Source of the DNA: Promethearchaeota archaeon
GTDB taxonomy: Archaea > Asgardarchaeota > Lokiarchaeia > Sigyniarchaeales > Promethearchaeaceae
Assembly: GCA_016933055.1 (NCBI GenBank)
Contig: JAFGBS010000009.1
Coordinates: 323,590 to 387,589, forward strand
Reading direction: 5' to 3'
DNA length: 64,000 nt
Positions 12,137-58,169 of the stretch are shown here, one piece after another. The stretch's first letter is position 1, and every line of letters starts with the position of its first letter. The position numbers and the translations under genes are program-made. The notes under the pieces are model-generated. The model did no database searches and was not told the DNA's origin. It saw nothing but the letters and a program-made list of their open reading frames with translations.

Positions 12137-12889
12137 CTATTTTTCCTTAATGGGTACGTCAACAACGTCTTGGGATTGTTTGATTGTAAAAAAGAATCTT
12201 TGTTGATAACGCTCCAAAATCCGAATCGTTTGTTCACCAAAAACGATTAGAAAAATGAAATTAGACAAGGCATGAGCAATATCAAATGGAATACTCTGGA
12301 TATTCGTAGCTATGAATGATGCGAGGGATATAGGCCTGATTAACAACCATGACCATATATTCATAAACCATCCATAAAGAAATGCGAGGAGAAAACCCAT
12401 TAATGCTAATATCCATTTATCGGGTTGTTTATTTCTTGTCTTCCCTAACGCACCTCCTAGTAATCCGAAAAATCCCCAAGCAAATATTTGATAGATTGTC
12501 CAGACACCTTGTCCGAGAAATATATTAGATAAAAACGCAGTATTCCCTCCAATTATGAATCCGATTAATGGACCAAATACATAACCTGCGCAAAGAACTA
12601 AGAAAGAAACGGGTTGGACACTGGGAATTCCAACAAAAGGGATCCTAGCTACTGCAGCGAAGGCACTATATATAGCAATTAGGGCAATTTCTTTCGAAGA
12701 AATATCCGATTCTTCAAATTTAAAATATATTGCAAGGATGAATAACAATAAGTAAATCATCCCAATGAGAATTAATGCTAAACTGGGAATTTCATTAACA
12801 TTGATTTGCTGATTAAAAATAATTGGGATCAGGAATGTTAAAATGCCAATTGTGAGTATAAATATGAATAGAAAATTACTGCGTTTCGT
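12137..12889 (-). CDS. ECF transporter S-component (substrate binding), probable ACG start
   Basis: Integral membrane protein with ~6-7 hydrophobic helices, including IYSAFAAVARIPFVGIPSVQ and FGPLIGFIIGGNTAFLSN, typical of energy-coupling-factor S-components. It captures the substrate and docks on the T/ATPase module encoded immediately upstream. The first canonical start (ATG 12760) would cut off a membrane helix: the frame is open and hydrophobic (FLFIFILTIGILTFLIPII) back to a stop at 12920-12922, with no ATG, GTG or TTG. I place the start at ACG 12889, giving Met-Lys-Arg-Ser-Asn then the helix, nine bases after GGAGG and inside the end of the ATPase gene. A frameshift or base error is the alternative. 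Substrate not determinable. Confidence 0.72.
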   Translation of the reverse strand, partial: TKRSNFLFIFILTIGILTFLIPIIFNQQINVNEIPSLALILIGMIYLLLFILAIYFKFEESDISSKEIALIAIYSAFAAVARIPFVGIPSVQPVSFLVLCAGYVFGPLIGFIIGGNTAFLSNIFLGQGVWTIYQIFAWGFFGLLGGALGKTRNKQPDKWILALMGFLLAFLYGWFMNIWSWLLIRPISLASFIATNIQSIPFDIAHALSNFIFLIVFGEQTIRILERYQQRFFFTIKQSQDVVDVPIKEK

Positions 12890-38251: not shown

Positions 38252-39871
38252 CTAGTACATGCCGCCACCAGGAGGCATTCCAGGAGGTCCACCAGAATTT
38301 GCACCGGCAGATATAATATCGTCGATTCTTAATATCATCTGAGCGGCTTCACTTGCAGATTTGATGGCTTGCTTCTTTACCACGATTGGTTCAATAACTC
38401 CTGCTGAAAGAAGATCATCGACAACTCCCAATTCTGGATCAATACCCGAGTTTACATGAGAGGCATGCGAGGCTCTTAGCTGCATCAGCATATCAATCTG
38501 ATCAAACCCTGCATTTTCAGCAAGCGTTTTGGGAATAATGTCCAAGGAATCAGCAAATACTTTTACAGCTAATTGCTCTCTCCCGCTTAGGGACTCTGCA
38601 TACTCTCGTAACTGTTTCGCAACTTCTGCCTCGGGGGCTCCACCGCCTCCAATGACCGCAGGTTGTTCAATTATGTCTTTAACCACGCATAAGGCATCAT
38701 GTATCGCACGATCTGCTTCTTCTACGACCAGCTCAGTCCCTCCTCGGATTAGAATGCTAAGTGCACGAGGATCTTTACAGTCTTCGACAAAAACCCAATC
38801 TTCCTTCATTACTTTCCGTTCCTCGAACAGTCCTGCTTTTCCTAGCTTGGTTTTGTCTAATCCTTCGAAGGATGTGAAAATCGTACCTCCGGTAGCTTTT
38901 GAGAGTTTTTCTAAATCGGATTTCTTTACTCGACGCACTGCCGATATTCCTTTTTTTGCTAAAAAGTGTTGTACTAAATCATCGATTCCTTTTTGGCAAA
39001 TCACGACATTTGCACCGGTTGCAACGATCTTATCTACCATGTCTTTGAGCATTTGCTCTTCTTGATCTAAGAAAGACTGGATCTGGTCTGGTGATGTAAT
39101 CGAAAGCTTAGCATCGAATTCGGTTTTTTTGATCTCTAAAGCTTCTTGCAAAAGAAGTATCTTAGCATTCTCAACGCGTTTTTTCATGCTTGGATTTACA
39201 ACTTCTTTATCCAAGATAATACCCGATATGAGTTGGGTGTCTTCTACTGACTCTCCTTCTTTCTTTTGAATCTGGATTTTATCAAGGTCCACAAAAAGGG
39301 TACCATCTTTTTCTTCTACGACACTAAGTGCGGCTTTTACAGCGATGTCAGCAATACGGTGTTTACTATCGTTAACTACTTTACTGGACATGCTGGTGAT
39401 GGCTGCTTGTCTCAAAATGTTTTGATCTTTAGGATCGACTTTCGTCCCGATAGCGTCTAAAATTTCCAAAGCTTTTTCTGCAGCTTTTTGGAACCCTTCT
39501 GTAATGATTGTGGGATGAATTTTCTGTTCTAGCAGTTTTCCTGCACGTTTAAGTAATTCACCGGCTAACACGACTGCGCTTGTTGTGCCATCTCCCACTT
39601 CGTCGTCCTGCGTCTTTGCTACTTCTACGATCATTTTTGCTGCGGGATGCTGAACATCTATCTCTTTTAAGATGGTAGCTCCATCATTTGTTATAGTGAC
39701 ATCTCCAAATTGGTCCACGAGCATTTTATCCATACCTCGTGGTCCTAAACTAGTCCGCACGGCTTCTGCTATAACTTTTGCAGCTGCAATGTTGTTTTGC
39801 TGAGCATTTTTTCCTTGTTGGCGCTCTGAACCTTCTTTTAACAATAATACTGGTTGTCCTGATAAACTAAT
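38252..39871 (-). CDS. thsA: Thermosome subunit (group II chaperonin), probable ATT start
   Basis: Group II chaperonin subunit, 539 residues from the proposed start, forming the double-ring ATP-driven folding machine of the archaeal cytosol. Seen: [40 protein letters not shown] (ATP site), [15 protein letters not shown] and a C-terminal Gly/Pro/Met tail. A GTG at 39880 is the first canonical start but forms part of the AGGTGAT ribosome-binding site. ATT at 39871 lies six bases after AGGTG and gives [16 protein letters not shown], the standard chaperonin beginning. If the transcript is instead leaderless, GTG would be used. A TATA-like element lies close upstream. Confidence 0.9.
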
Positions 39872-39875
39872 TTTT

Positions 39876-39882
39876 ATCACCT
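39876..39882 (-). promoter_or_regulatory. Ribosome-binding site AGGTGAT of thermosome gene
   Basis: AGGTGAT is fully complementary to the usual archaeal 16S 3' end. Six bases separate AGGTG from ATT 39871. The only nearby canonical codon, GTG 39880, lies inside this site. Confidence 0.55.
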
Positions 39883-46071: not shown

Positions 46072-46875
46072 TTACGATCGATGAGCAACTAACGAAAATT
46101 TTTCACCTAATGACCATAAGGTTTTGAAATAGGTCATAGCATACCGAACTAGGTTAACTTCAGTAATCCAAAACACCATATTTTCCTCGCGGACGTTCAA
46201 TTTAAAGAAAGAGGAGAGAAACACAAGAAGATCACTATCATCGACAATAATGCCATCAAACATAACCCGTGAATTAGTTTGAATCTTGGAAATTGTCAGC
46301 ATTTTTCTCCAAATTTTTTTAGTATCTGTACTTGGATTAAAATCTCTAGGAATACTAACTTGGATTTCCACTTTTCGTGTATTAGCTTCCAATAAATGGT
46401 CAAAAAACTCTTCAATAAAACCTTCATCTGGTTTATTGAAGAAAATTTGTATTTTATTCTTAGCTCCATTCAATAGATTGGCGATTTTTAAGCTTATATC
46501 TCCTTTGAGCATAAATATCGGAGTCGTATCTATTTCCTTTTCATTTCCGTATCGAGGTTCTAATTTATCAATAAGAGCAGATTCTATCCGTTTATATTTC
46601 TCCTCGAGTTGTTTCTTAGCAATCTTTGCCACAGACTTCGGTCGTTCGGCTTGATACATCATTGGGCGACCTTGGTGAACTTTGACCCATCCTTGACTCT
46701 CTAAATTCAATAAAATGTCATAAATTCGGCTATAGGGTATATTAGTTTTATCTGAAATTTCCTTTGCGCTAGAAATTCCATTGATAGTTAATGCTACAAA
46801 TGCTTTTGTTTCATAATCAGTCAATCCGAACTCTTTTAACGCCGCATATACCTCATGGTCGATCTTTGATAACGT
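46072..46875 (-). CDS. TrmB-family transcriptional regulator, probable ACG start
   Basis: 267 residues from the proposed start. N-terminal winged helix (ALKEFGLTDYETKAFVAL; EISDKTNIPYSRIYDILLNLESQGWV) of the TrmB type, followed by a linker and a C-terminal effector region (ISLKIANLLNGAKNKIQIFF) resembling the PLD-like TrmB_C part. Regulates sugar or metabolic genes in archaea; the ligand is unknown. The first canonical start, TTG 46824, would delete the ALKEFGL helix start. The frame is open upstream to a TGA at 46882-46884 with no ATG, GTG or TTG. ACG 46875 follows GGTG by seven bases. Confidence 0.82.
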   Translation of the reverse strand, partial: TLSKIDHEVYAALKEFGLTDYETKAFVALTINGISSAKEISDKTNIPYSRIYDILLNLESQGWVKVHQGRPMMYQAERPKSVAKIAKKQLEEKYKRIESALIDKLEPRYGNEKEIDTTPIFMLKGDISLKIANLLNGAKNKIQIFFNKPDEGFIEEFFDHLLEANTRKVEIQVSIPRDFNPSTDTKKIWRKMLTISKIQTNSRVMFDGIIVDDSDLLVFLSSFFKLNVREENMVFWITEVNLVRYAMTYFKTLWSLGEKFSLVAHRS

Positions 46876-55390: not shown

Positions 55391-57424
55391 ATGTCTGAAA
55401 AACACAATAGTGAACTCATTAACATTGATCCTCTAGAAAGTTCCGATGAAGAAATTTCTGAAGAAGAGGAGATAGTCCTACCTAGCGCTATCGATATTCA
55501 AGTGGACTCATTAGATACAAGTCGTAAACAGTTTTTCAATCAAATTCTTGGGATGATCCAATCTTTAAGTGAACAGAAAGACATCATTTCAAAGATCTTG
55601 GATGAGGGTTGTTCTATACTGAATGCAAGTTCTGCAGCTCTGGTGATTTGGGAGGACAAATTAGGTTTCTTTAATTCCATATCGGGTTTTCCAGAAGAGA
55701 TGAATATCCGAGGTCACTTAATCAATACTAATGAGGGATTAAGCGGGAGGATCTATTCCGAACAAAAAACAATTTGGATTCGCAATTATAGTAAGTCAAT
55801 TTATTGTTATAAGTTATTTAAAAAACTGAATTTTAACTACGCAATAGGAACACCAATTGTTATCCGTGGGGAATTAATCGGAAATGTCAATTTTTATTAT
55901 AAATCCATGCCTGAAGCGGATAATGAATTATTAAAAAGATTTATCGAGGATTTAAGTCAACAGTTAAGTATTGTTATCATAAACTCAAGAATTTACCAAG
56001 AACTCCAAGAAAATGCAAAAAAACTAGAAAATGTAATAAAATACCGGGATGTAATTTTAGATCACTCTCCAAATATCATCATTGATTTAGATAATAATGG
56101 GAAAATTCAATATTGGAACAAAACTGCTACCGATATCCTGGGATATTCCCCCCATGAAATGGCGGACTGTAATTTACCGTTAGCAGATCACGCAAATTCA
56201 GAACAATTTTTAAAATATTTCATTGATGCTCGTAAAGGCATTGAATATGAGAAAGCACCCATTGATTTTAAGAGAAGTAATAATGATGTTGTTACTTTAA
56301 ATTTAAAAATAGTCCCTTTAATTACATCCACCCAACGAAAAAAGGGAGAAGAAGCTAAATCTATATTAATTTTCGCTATGGATGTTTCTCGGAAGCATAT
56401 TTTGGAGCAAAAAATTAAACAAACTGAATTAGAGCTTCATGAACAAAAGCAAGAATTAGAGAAAACCCAAGAAAAACTAAAGGGTATTAGTAGAGATCTC
56501 AAAAATAAGGAAAAGCTAGCACGTATTGGAAGAATATACGGAAATCTTGCGAACCAAATTAATAATCCCTTGATGATTATTAGTAATTGGGTGCAAGTAT
56601 TAATGGATTCTCATGAAGACGCCCCCTCCCCAAAAAGTCAGGAGACATACGCTTACCTTATGGAAATACCCTCCGAAATTGAACGAATAGCTGAAATCGT
56701 TCGAAACCTCCGAGTGTATTCTGAAATAGCTACACAAAAAATTGAAGATCGGGATTCAAAGGTATCGCACGGAGTAGGGGAAGATACAATTCCCCGATCA
56801 AATGATGTTACCGTAATCAATCCGTTGTATGATGCAGTTAAGGACATTAAAAGATGCATTAAAGGAGAACGCATCAAAATCGATGTGGTCTCCAATTTTA
56901 AAAAGAATCCTCCTGTGATAAAGGGAAGATATCGTCATCTCAAAACTTGCTTTTACCATATTCTTGAAAATGCAGTAATCTCTCTTCGATTTAAAGATCT
57001 ATATACAAAACTCGGACTTATAGAGAAAAAATGGGATCGGAAAATCAAGGTTACTATAGGGGAAAAAATTATCAATGGCATCCCATATGTTCGGATAGAA
57101 ATACATGATAGTGGTATTGGTATTGATCGGGATGAAATTCGAAATATTAAGAAAGCTTTTCACTCCAATTGGCCCAGTATCGATGATATACAAGAACTCG
57201 CTGAATCTGTCGGGAAAAAATTAAACGCTAAAGATTTAGAAATTATTCGAGATTTTTGTGAAGAGGGATTTAAACAAAAACTCAAAGATAAAAAATATTG
57301 TGTAGGAATGGGACTTACAATTGCCTCCCTTATCGTAAAATCCCATGAGGATAGTAGTATACACGCTAAACTAACTCCACAAGATGGAGTTTCCTTTATA
57401 ATGGATTTCAAGCAAGTATCATGA
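55391..57424 (+). CDS. GAF-PAS histidine-kinase-like protein lacking the phospho-His
   Basis: 677 residues. A GAF domain (~60-205), PAS domain (~215-335, IIIDLDNNGKIQYWNKTA), a coiled coil, a HisKA-like helix and an HATPase domain. The HATPase has an N-box ENAVIS, DSGIGID (G1) and GMGLTIASL (G2). At the H-box, usually HEINNPL, this protein reads LANQINNPLMII: Asn388 replaces the His. No membrane helix. So it may be a pseudokinase, or work by another site or partner. The response-regulator gene follows 76 bases later. Seven bases upstream of the ATG is AGG, a weak site. Confidence 0.85.
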   Translation: MSEKHNSELINIDPLESSDEEISEEEEIVLPSAIDIQVDSLDTSRKQFFNQILGMIQSLSEQKDIISKILDEGCSILNASSAALVIWEDKLGFFNSISGFPEEMNIRGHLINTNEGLSGRIYSEQKTIWIRNYSKSIYCYKLFKKLNFNYAIGTPIVIRGELIGNVNFYYKSMPEADNELLKRFIEDLSQQLSIVIINSRIYQELQENAKKLENVIKYRDVILDHSPNIIIDLDNNGKIQYWNKTATDILGYSPHEMADCNLPLADHANSEQFLKYFIDARKGIEYEKAPIDFKRSNNDVVTLNLKIVPLITSTQRKKGEEAKSILIFAMDVSRKHILEQKIKQTELELHEQKQELEKTQEKLKGISRDLKNKEKLARIGRIYGNLANQINNPLMIISNWVQVLMDSHEDAPSPKSQETYAYLMEIPSEIERIAEIVRNLRVYSEIATQKIEDRDSKVSHGVGEDTIPRSNDVTVINPLYDAVKDIKRCIKGERIKIDVVSNFKKNPPVIKGRYRHLKTCFYHILENAVISLRFKDLYTKLGLIEKKWDRKIKVTIGEKIINGIPYVRIEIHDSGIGIDRDEIRNIKKAFHSNWPSIDDIQELAESVGKKLNAKDLEIIRDFCEEGFKQKLKDKKYCVGMGLTIASLIVKSHEDSSIHAKLTPQDGVSFIMDFKQVS

Positions 57425-57489
57425 GGATTATTAACAATTTAAGATAAGATTAAAAAATAAAACCACGAAAAACTCACAACAAATAACAT

Positions 57490-57494
57490 AGGTG
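57490..57494 (+). promoter_or_regulatory. Ribosome-binding site AGGTG of the response regulator
   Basis: AGGTG ends six bases before ATT 57501. A TAA immediately before that ATT (57498-57500) blocks any start further upstream. Confidence 0.6.
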
Positions 57495-57500
57495 TTATAA

Positions 57501-58169
57501 ATTACCGATAAAAAAGCAAGAATATTGGTTATTGATGATGAAAAAGCCATCAGAGTAACATTGAAAAGAATTCTTGAACTGGCAGATTTTACGGTCGAAA
57601 CTGCGAGGGATTTCCAAAGTGTTAAATCCATATTAAACGCTGAGAATCCTAATTTTGACCTACTTTTGGTAGACTTAGTTCTACCTAAAACTAATGGAAT
57701 CGATATTGTAAAACACTTTAGCGAAAAATATGATTTCGACATACCTGTTATATTTTTAACAGGTGAACCGAACTTAGATTCCGCAATTAATGCACTGCGT
57801 TTAGGAGCTTATGATTATATTGAGAAACCAATTAAAAAAGCACAATTACTAGAAGTCATCGAATATGCGTTACAACGCAAAAAAAGTGAGGATAATATCC
57901 AAGATAAGCGTATGGCACAAAAAATGGAACAGAAGCTAAAGGGATTAGAAAAAAATTTACAATCAAGTATCATAACCAACTTTACAATGAAAGTCGATGC
58001 GCTACGAGAAAAAATTGATTATTTGAGACAGGGCAAAGCGGGAAACCTCCCCGTTGAGATTTCTAATGAAATTGCGAATTTAGATAAATTAGTTAATGAC
58101 CTAGAACTCGAGATTAAAAAAAGTAATCACCTTGGAAAATTTATGCGAGAACTAACAAAAAAAAAATAG
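57501..58169 (+). CDS. Response regulator receiver with coiled-coil tail, ATT start
   Basis: 222 residues. Receiver domain: ARILVIDDEKA, LLLVDLVLP (phospho-Asp), IFLTGE, and YIEKPIKK (conserved Lys). A ~95-residue helical tail follows, with no DNA-binding domain. The first canonical start, TTG 57525, would remove TDKKARI, the first strand of the receiver. ATT 57501 directly follows an in-frame stop and lies six bases after AGGTG, so it is almost the only possible start. Likely partner of the GAF-PAS kinase-like protein; a signalling output by protein contact is inferred. Confidence 0.85.
   Translation: MTDKKARILVIDDEKAIRVTLKRILELADFTVETARDFQSVKSILNAENPNFDLLLVDLVLPKTNGIDIVKHFSEKYDFDIPVIFLTGEPNLDSAINALRLGAYDYIEKPIKKAQLLEVIEYALQRKKSEDNIQDKRMAQKMEQKLKGLEKNLQSSIITNFTMKVDALREKIDYLRQGKAGNLPVEISNEIANLDKLVNDLELEIKKSNHLGKFMRELTKKK

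Follow-up and report, generated by a model that had tools for sequence, protein, structure and literature searches.

Putative near-cognate start codons, one of them at the aIF1 gene itself, in an order of Asgard archaea

We analyzed a stretch of 64,000 nucleotides (the window) from a Promethearchaeota archaeon (assembly GCA_016933055.1, contig JAFGBS010000009.1, positions 323,590 to 387,589), in which a response regulator gene appears to begin at an ATT codon. The gene (57501..58169, + strand) encodes 222 amino acids, with a receiver domain (PF00072, E value of 4.7e-25) followed by a C-terminal tail; counting ATT as the first codon, the Pfam match starts at residue 8. A partner histidine kinase with an ATG start (GAF-PAS-HisKA-HATPase by Pfam; 55391..57424, +) ends 76 nt upstream, so that the receiver gene and the adjoining HisKA/HATPase gene constitute an ordinary two-component system. 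In a scan of genome contigs, the receiver proteins among the loci kept were all bacterial. The genome containing the window is 3.76 Mb in size and encodes a gelsolin-domain protein (PF00626), as do all seven relatives searched and none of 14 control genomes. Such proteins, which we take to be markers of Asgards among the archaea, mark the genome as that of an Asgard archaeon.

The predicted start of the response regulator, ATT at 57501..57503 (+), directly follows an in-frame TAA stop (57498..57500, +) and is continued by ACC GAT AAA AAA GCA AGA ATA TTG GTT ATT GAT GAT GAA. A Shine-Dalgarno (SD)-like AGGTG (57490..57494, +) ends six bases 5' of the ATT, matches AGGAGGTGATC, and lies in the same register as the SD sequences of ATG-initiated genes in this genome. 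The earliest ATG, GTG, or TTG in the frame is the TTG at 57525..57527, eight codons in. An initial annotation, made from the sequence of the window, had placed all of these elements between 57490 and 57527 correctly, and its statement that reading from ATT gives a receiver domain agrees with the Pfam result. It had also proposed that close relatives be aligned at this codon. In G005, a genome of the same family, the homologue has ATG at exactly this position (ATG ACA GAT AAA AAG, encoding Met-Thr-Asp-Lys-Lys, versus ATT ACC GAT AAA AAA here, with an insertion afterwards in G005), and ATT is not conserved there. The homologues in G004 and G007 begin MSKARILIIDDE and MSKAKILVIDDE, their ATG lying at most two codons from the ATT. 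These homologous starts decide for ATT 57501 as the predicted start. We assign a probability of roughly 0.87 to the reading that AUU at 57501 is where translation of the response regulator begins, and that this codon belongs to a set of near-cognate starts (AUU, AUA, AUC, ACG, and CUG) that would serve at least ~1% of the genes in the genus and would usually be placed by an SD sequence.

It is very improbable that the true starts are instead the next canonical codons, the upstream parts being left untranslated. For the response regulator this has some appeal, as TTG 57525 comes so early that most of the receiver would be retained; the initial annotation held that such a start would remove the first strand, which was somewhat overstated, because the loss would be confined to the leader plus a single residue at the beginning of the Pfam match, and strand 1 would be shortened. 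Inspection of the sequence upstream of TTG 57525, however, found no SD-like sequence, and the residues upstream of it align with the beginnings of the homologues. In other genes with inferred near-cognate starts, the next canonical codon lies 17 to 94 codons in, and parts of conserved domains would be lost.

The strongest and most important near-cognate case lies outside the window, in the gene for the initiation factor aIF1. The idea that this fidelity factor is missing from the genome was rejected, as aIF1 is present, with a SUI1 domain (PF01253) scoring over the cut-off and a zinc-knuckle motif (CX2C-LP-X3CVC) that resembles one described in PMC6237735. The aIF1 loci without an ATG, GTG, or TTG start include L299 (this genome, G000:C6, ~28144), L301 (its congener G001), L293, and L294. 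In G000 and G001, which form genus g1, the gene reads TGA AAA AAC ATA CCA AAA GAC, with no canonical start, and the ATA matches the TTG of TTG CCA AAA GAT in G005. In G010 and G016, of family f4, it reads ATT AAA GAC GAC, again with no canonical start. A pattern search open to every Ile codon, and to both codons of Lys and of Asp, found ATT AAA GAC GAC GA invariant in 16 of the 79 genomes of the order, belonging to two genera (g7 and g11) of a family other than that of g1; 16 is a minimum, because a genome may escape the pattern merely through sequence differences. Two third positions near the invariant ATT take all four bases across these 16 genomes. Between one and three in-frame stops lie just 5' of the ATT; in several genomes these are TGA TAA and in one TGA TAA TAG, with just one or two codons between them and the ATT. 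The putative weak start of aIF1 is conserved as such, as ATT in 16 genomes of two genera and as ATA in the two g1 species. Genomes of family f3 start aIF1 with ATG; among the eight f1 and f4 genomes read, none does. The next canonical codon lies 40 codons in (G010 and G016), 47 codons in (G001), or 11 codons in (G000), so that a later canonical start would cost aIF1 its whole zinc knuckle, with 40 to 47 residues, or half of it in G000, which is a further argument against later starts.

Near-cognate codons were retained in relatives for further genes as well. The gamma subunit of pyruvate:ferredoxin oxidoreductase (POR gamma) has CTG in both G000 and G001, behind an identical AAGGATGAATAAAAA leader, with only 126 of the 267 shared residues keeping the same codon between the two genomes; the start is TTG in G002 and ATG in most other relatives, and the next canonical codon lies 23 codons in, within the POR domain. 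A membrane protein has GGTGA, 6 nt, and ATT in G000 and G001, and GGTGA AGAAAA ATT in G008, from another family, with ATG in the remaining genomes. A gene of unknown family (C17:179949) reads GAGGGG TTYACM ATA in both g1 genomes, and its G001 counterpart has no canonical codon near the start. The near-cognate is thus retained in relatives for POR gamma, the membrane protein, the C17:179949 gene, and aIF1, but not for the response regulator or for two other window genes described below, a TrmB-family regulator and an ECF transporter S component, whose relatives have ATG or TTG. No in-frame ATG, GTG, or TTG stands at the homologous start of the response regulator, TrmB regulator, ECF S component, POR gamma, membrane protein, aIF1, or a methyltransferase. 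Base-calling or assembly errors that changed ATG to ATT, ACG, or ATC would account for the confinement of all three window cases to this genome; yet starts at CTG, ATT, and ATA are found again in related genomes that were assembled independently (the aIF1 ATT in 16), and an error rate high enough to hit several starts in ~50 genes would break many reading frames, which in the window are intact. Because near-cognates are conserved across separately assembled genomes, read errors are a very unlikely source, and the comparison indicates that near-cognate starts are a lineage trait and not a sequencing error. Least likely of all, although the state of this genome looks derived for several genes because most relatives start with ATG, is that the near-cognate codons mark decaying genes or start losses toward pseudogenes, as SD sequences are retained, the frames are open at full length, the codons are conserved between species, and core functions are affected (POR gamma, aIF1, and probably a thermosome subunit).

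Within the window, the TrmB-family regulator (46072..46875, -; PF01978, E value of 4.7e-20) has the leader GGGGTGA ACTAGA ACG, in which the inferred ACG start (46873..46875, -) follows the GGGGTGA after 6 nt and precedes Glu-Val-Tyr by seven codons. This ACG is exactly aligned with ATG in G003 and G005 and with TTG in G004 and G006. The ECF transporter S component (12137..12889, -; PF07155, E value of 1.2e-11) has its predicted start at ACG (12887..12889, -), 9 nt after GGAGG, and reads GGAGG TTTTTAGAA ACG AAA CGC AGT AAT (GGAGGTTTTTAGAA before the ACG). Its counterpart in G001 (~70% identity) reads GGAGG TTTTGAGACA ATG AAG CGG AGT AAT (GGAGGTTTTGAGACA before the ATG), the GGAGG being conserved between the two leaders. 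A thermosome subunit (PF00118) has a probable start at ATT 39869..39871 (-), after AGGTGA and TAAAA; the region reads AGGTGATAAAAATT, and the ATG of relatives lies one codon away (AGGTGAAAAATATG in G008). This start is ambiguous because the AGGTGA itself holds an in-frame GTG. The start region of the thermosome gene (39869-39880, -) and that of an ABC ATPase gene (C17:653283, -) have TAGGTGATAAAAATTAGT in common, and the GTG within the SD of these genes is the start that standard gene callers would choose. The initial annotation had counted four other window genes that behave like the response regulator; TrmB at ACG 46875 and the ECF S component at ACG 12889 bear this out, the thermosome at ATT 39871 is a probable third, and a search of the window for a fifth near-cognate case, which would have been the fourth of these genes, found none.

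The wider survey covered 1.15 Mb of this genome, from contig C17, on which window positions 57501, 46875, and 12889 are 381090, 370464, and 336478, and from contig C2, along with 0.78 Mb of G001. It screened for genes whose coding potential reaches well 5' of the first canonical codon, with alignments added. Called genes were used, since a comparison of all open reading frames was uninformative (antisense shadow frames align too). Clear near-cognate starts were found in ~8 of 908 genes of this genome, a lower bound because the screen requires a distant canonical codon. The methyltransferase (C17:715865) has an ATC start with AGGAGG and 60 codons without a canonical codon, and ATG in G001; an aldehyde dehydrogenase (C17:640337) has CTG with GAGGTGA; and two genes on C2 start at ATT and ATA, each with GGTGA and 6 nt. 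A guess that the C2 gene with ATT encodes FtsY was dropped, as it has no Pfam match. In G001, a GH94 protein starts at ATA, with 94 codons free of canonical codons, and another gene starts at CTG. Across ~130 alignable ortholog pairs, a near-cognate start was seen in two. For 61,358 ancestral AUG starts, reconstructed switches include two to CUG and one to AUU (PMC5622118), a contrast that is only indicative because annotation habits depress that number. Rates in other families were sampled from flanking genes. The f3 part of this sample was unusable because its sequences look G+C-rich and misfit the coding model, and the flanks of G008 (family f2) gave one near-cognate start among 12 genes. 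In a TrmB paralogue of G008 (L274), the conserved region is likewise not preceded by a canonical codon (AGA GGA ACG ATC ATA TCG AAA ATT GAC), which gives that genome two near-cognate candidates. In a G001 gene (L164:7552), a complete GGAGG lies in register, but AAA occupies the start position and the first canonical codon comes 22 codons in; near-cognate initiation does not explain it.

SD placement was also examined statistically. This genome and its congener contributed 1530 genes. In 24 of them a core SD is followed by eight codons that include no canonical one, and in 12 of these 24 a near-cognate codon (ATT, ATC, ATA, ACG, or CTG) stands in the SD register, versus 3.7 expected (P = 6.5e-5). 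In a stricter subset with coding evidence, the codon is in frame in 7 of 13, versus 2 of 13 in either other frame. Most near-cognate cases have the SD spacing of ATG genes, the aIF1 of g1 showing this weakly.

Several points weigh against the interpretation proposed here, for which the evidence is genomic throughout. The SD-register test is of modest strength, and its outcome varies with the settings: those behind the P value of 6.5e-5 were chosen after earlier scans had been seen, P rose to 0.014 when they were relaxed, and the two initial genome-scale scans, which were cruder and had loose criteria, showed no clear enrichment, the signal probably being masked by chance in-frame codons close to starts that are not resolved. 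The evidence from homologous starts is stronger and outweighs this test. In the aIF1 of g1 the SD is weak and oddly spaced. The near-cognate starts of the response regulator, TrmB, and the ECF S component occur in this genome alone, and base-call errors are excluded for them only indirectly, through the near-cognates conserved in other genes and the intact frames. tRNA scans of the contigs covered, which make up part of the genome, returned no initiator Met-tRNA gene. Finally, 283 genes in the sampled flanks of other f1 genera and of f4 included no near-cognate start with coding evidence, a shortfall relative to g1 that is not significant at that sample size.

Two other tRNA loci were recorded. 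One with the anticodon TCA (L121:7504-7594, -), called tRNA-Sec by ARAGORN, suggests selenocysteine use in this Asgard genome; the other, a tRNA-like gene (L153:14772-14847) whose anticodon was called with four bases (cgta), is probably an archaeal tRNA with an intron that the program misread.

If the near-cognate codons are used as starts, SD pairing would set the codon in the P site, where the ordinary initiator Met-tRNA, with aIF2, would pair with it imperfectly. Such codons would then be weak starts, sensitive to the level of aIF1, which would normally reject them; in Sulfolobus, aIF1 destabilizes initiation at non-canonical codons (PMC6237735). Because the aIF1 gene itself appears to start at AUU or AUA, we propose a negative feedback that would link aIF1 level and start stringency and would adjust the remaining near-cognate genes too. 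We see an even chance that, in this Asgard order, the near-cognate aIF1 start, which is AUU in one family and AUA in a second, lets aIF1 limit its own synthesis and set stringency for a near-cognate regulon, as an archaeal counterpart of infC and eIF1 autocontrol. In the literature passages on aIF1 that were examined, no control of this kind is described for archaea. The initial annotation suggested that the lineage employs near-cognate starts for selected genes, and this is supported by the aligned relatives, the near-cognates shared across species, and the aIF1 ATT of 16 genomes; the tuning of expression that it also envisaged seems most plausible for aIF1 itself, given the infC and eIF1 precedents.

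In bacteria, IF3 autocontrol depends on the AUU start of infC, the gene for IF3 (Butler et al. 1987, as cited in PMC9845219). Here, as there, the gene of a start-fidelity factor itself appears to start at AUU. However, IF3 and aIF1 are unrelated proteins, the Asgard host, an archaeon, has initiation factors of the eukaryotic type, autocontrol there is a proposal, and the Asgard trait extends to other genes and to several further near-cognate codons. Eukaryotic eIF1, a homologue of aIF1 in the SUI1 family, is autoregulated via an AUG in poor context (Ivanov et al. 2010, as cited in PMC6237735 and PMC9082881). A weak start on the factor's own gene, predicted in the case of aIF1, is common to both and in eIF1 is the sensor; in eukaryotes the weakness lies in the AUG context during scanning, whereas in Asgard aIF1 it would lie in the codon itself, AUU or AUA. 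The passages available from a review of archaeal initiation name AUG, GUG, and UUG starts only and describe SD sequences as not prevalent in a Lokiarchaeote (PMC7531240). Initiation placed by an SD at non-AUG codons is common to archaeal GUG and UUG starts and to the genes described here, but the codons here are AUU, AUA, AUC, ACG, and CUG, mostly after an SD. In Streptomyces, the GTC start of sigR is repressed by IF3 (PMC5472188), a regulator gene whose non-canonical start likewise makes translation sensitive to a fidelity factor, though in a bacterium, for one gene, and with another codon and factor.

Since standard gene callers take only ATG, GTG, and TTG, Asgard aIF1 and other genes have probably been given wrong starts or overlooked. 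Should the aIF1 start be regulatory, a weak start on the fidelity factor's own gene would serve to control start-codon accuracy in all three domains, and the archaeal example would come from the closest lineage to eukaryotes. The way in which archaea govern start selection is a long-standing question, which can now be tested through one codon change. These results suggest that this Asgard archaeon and its relatives, like bacteria and eukaryotes, may control how accurately start codons are chosen.
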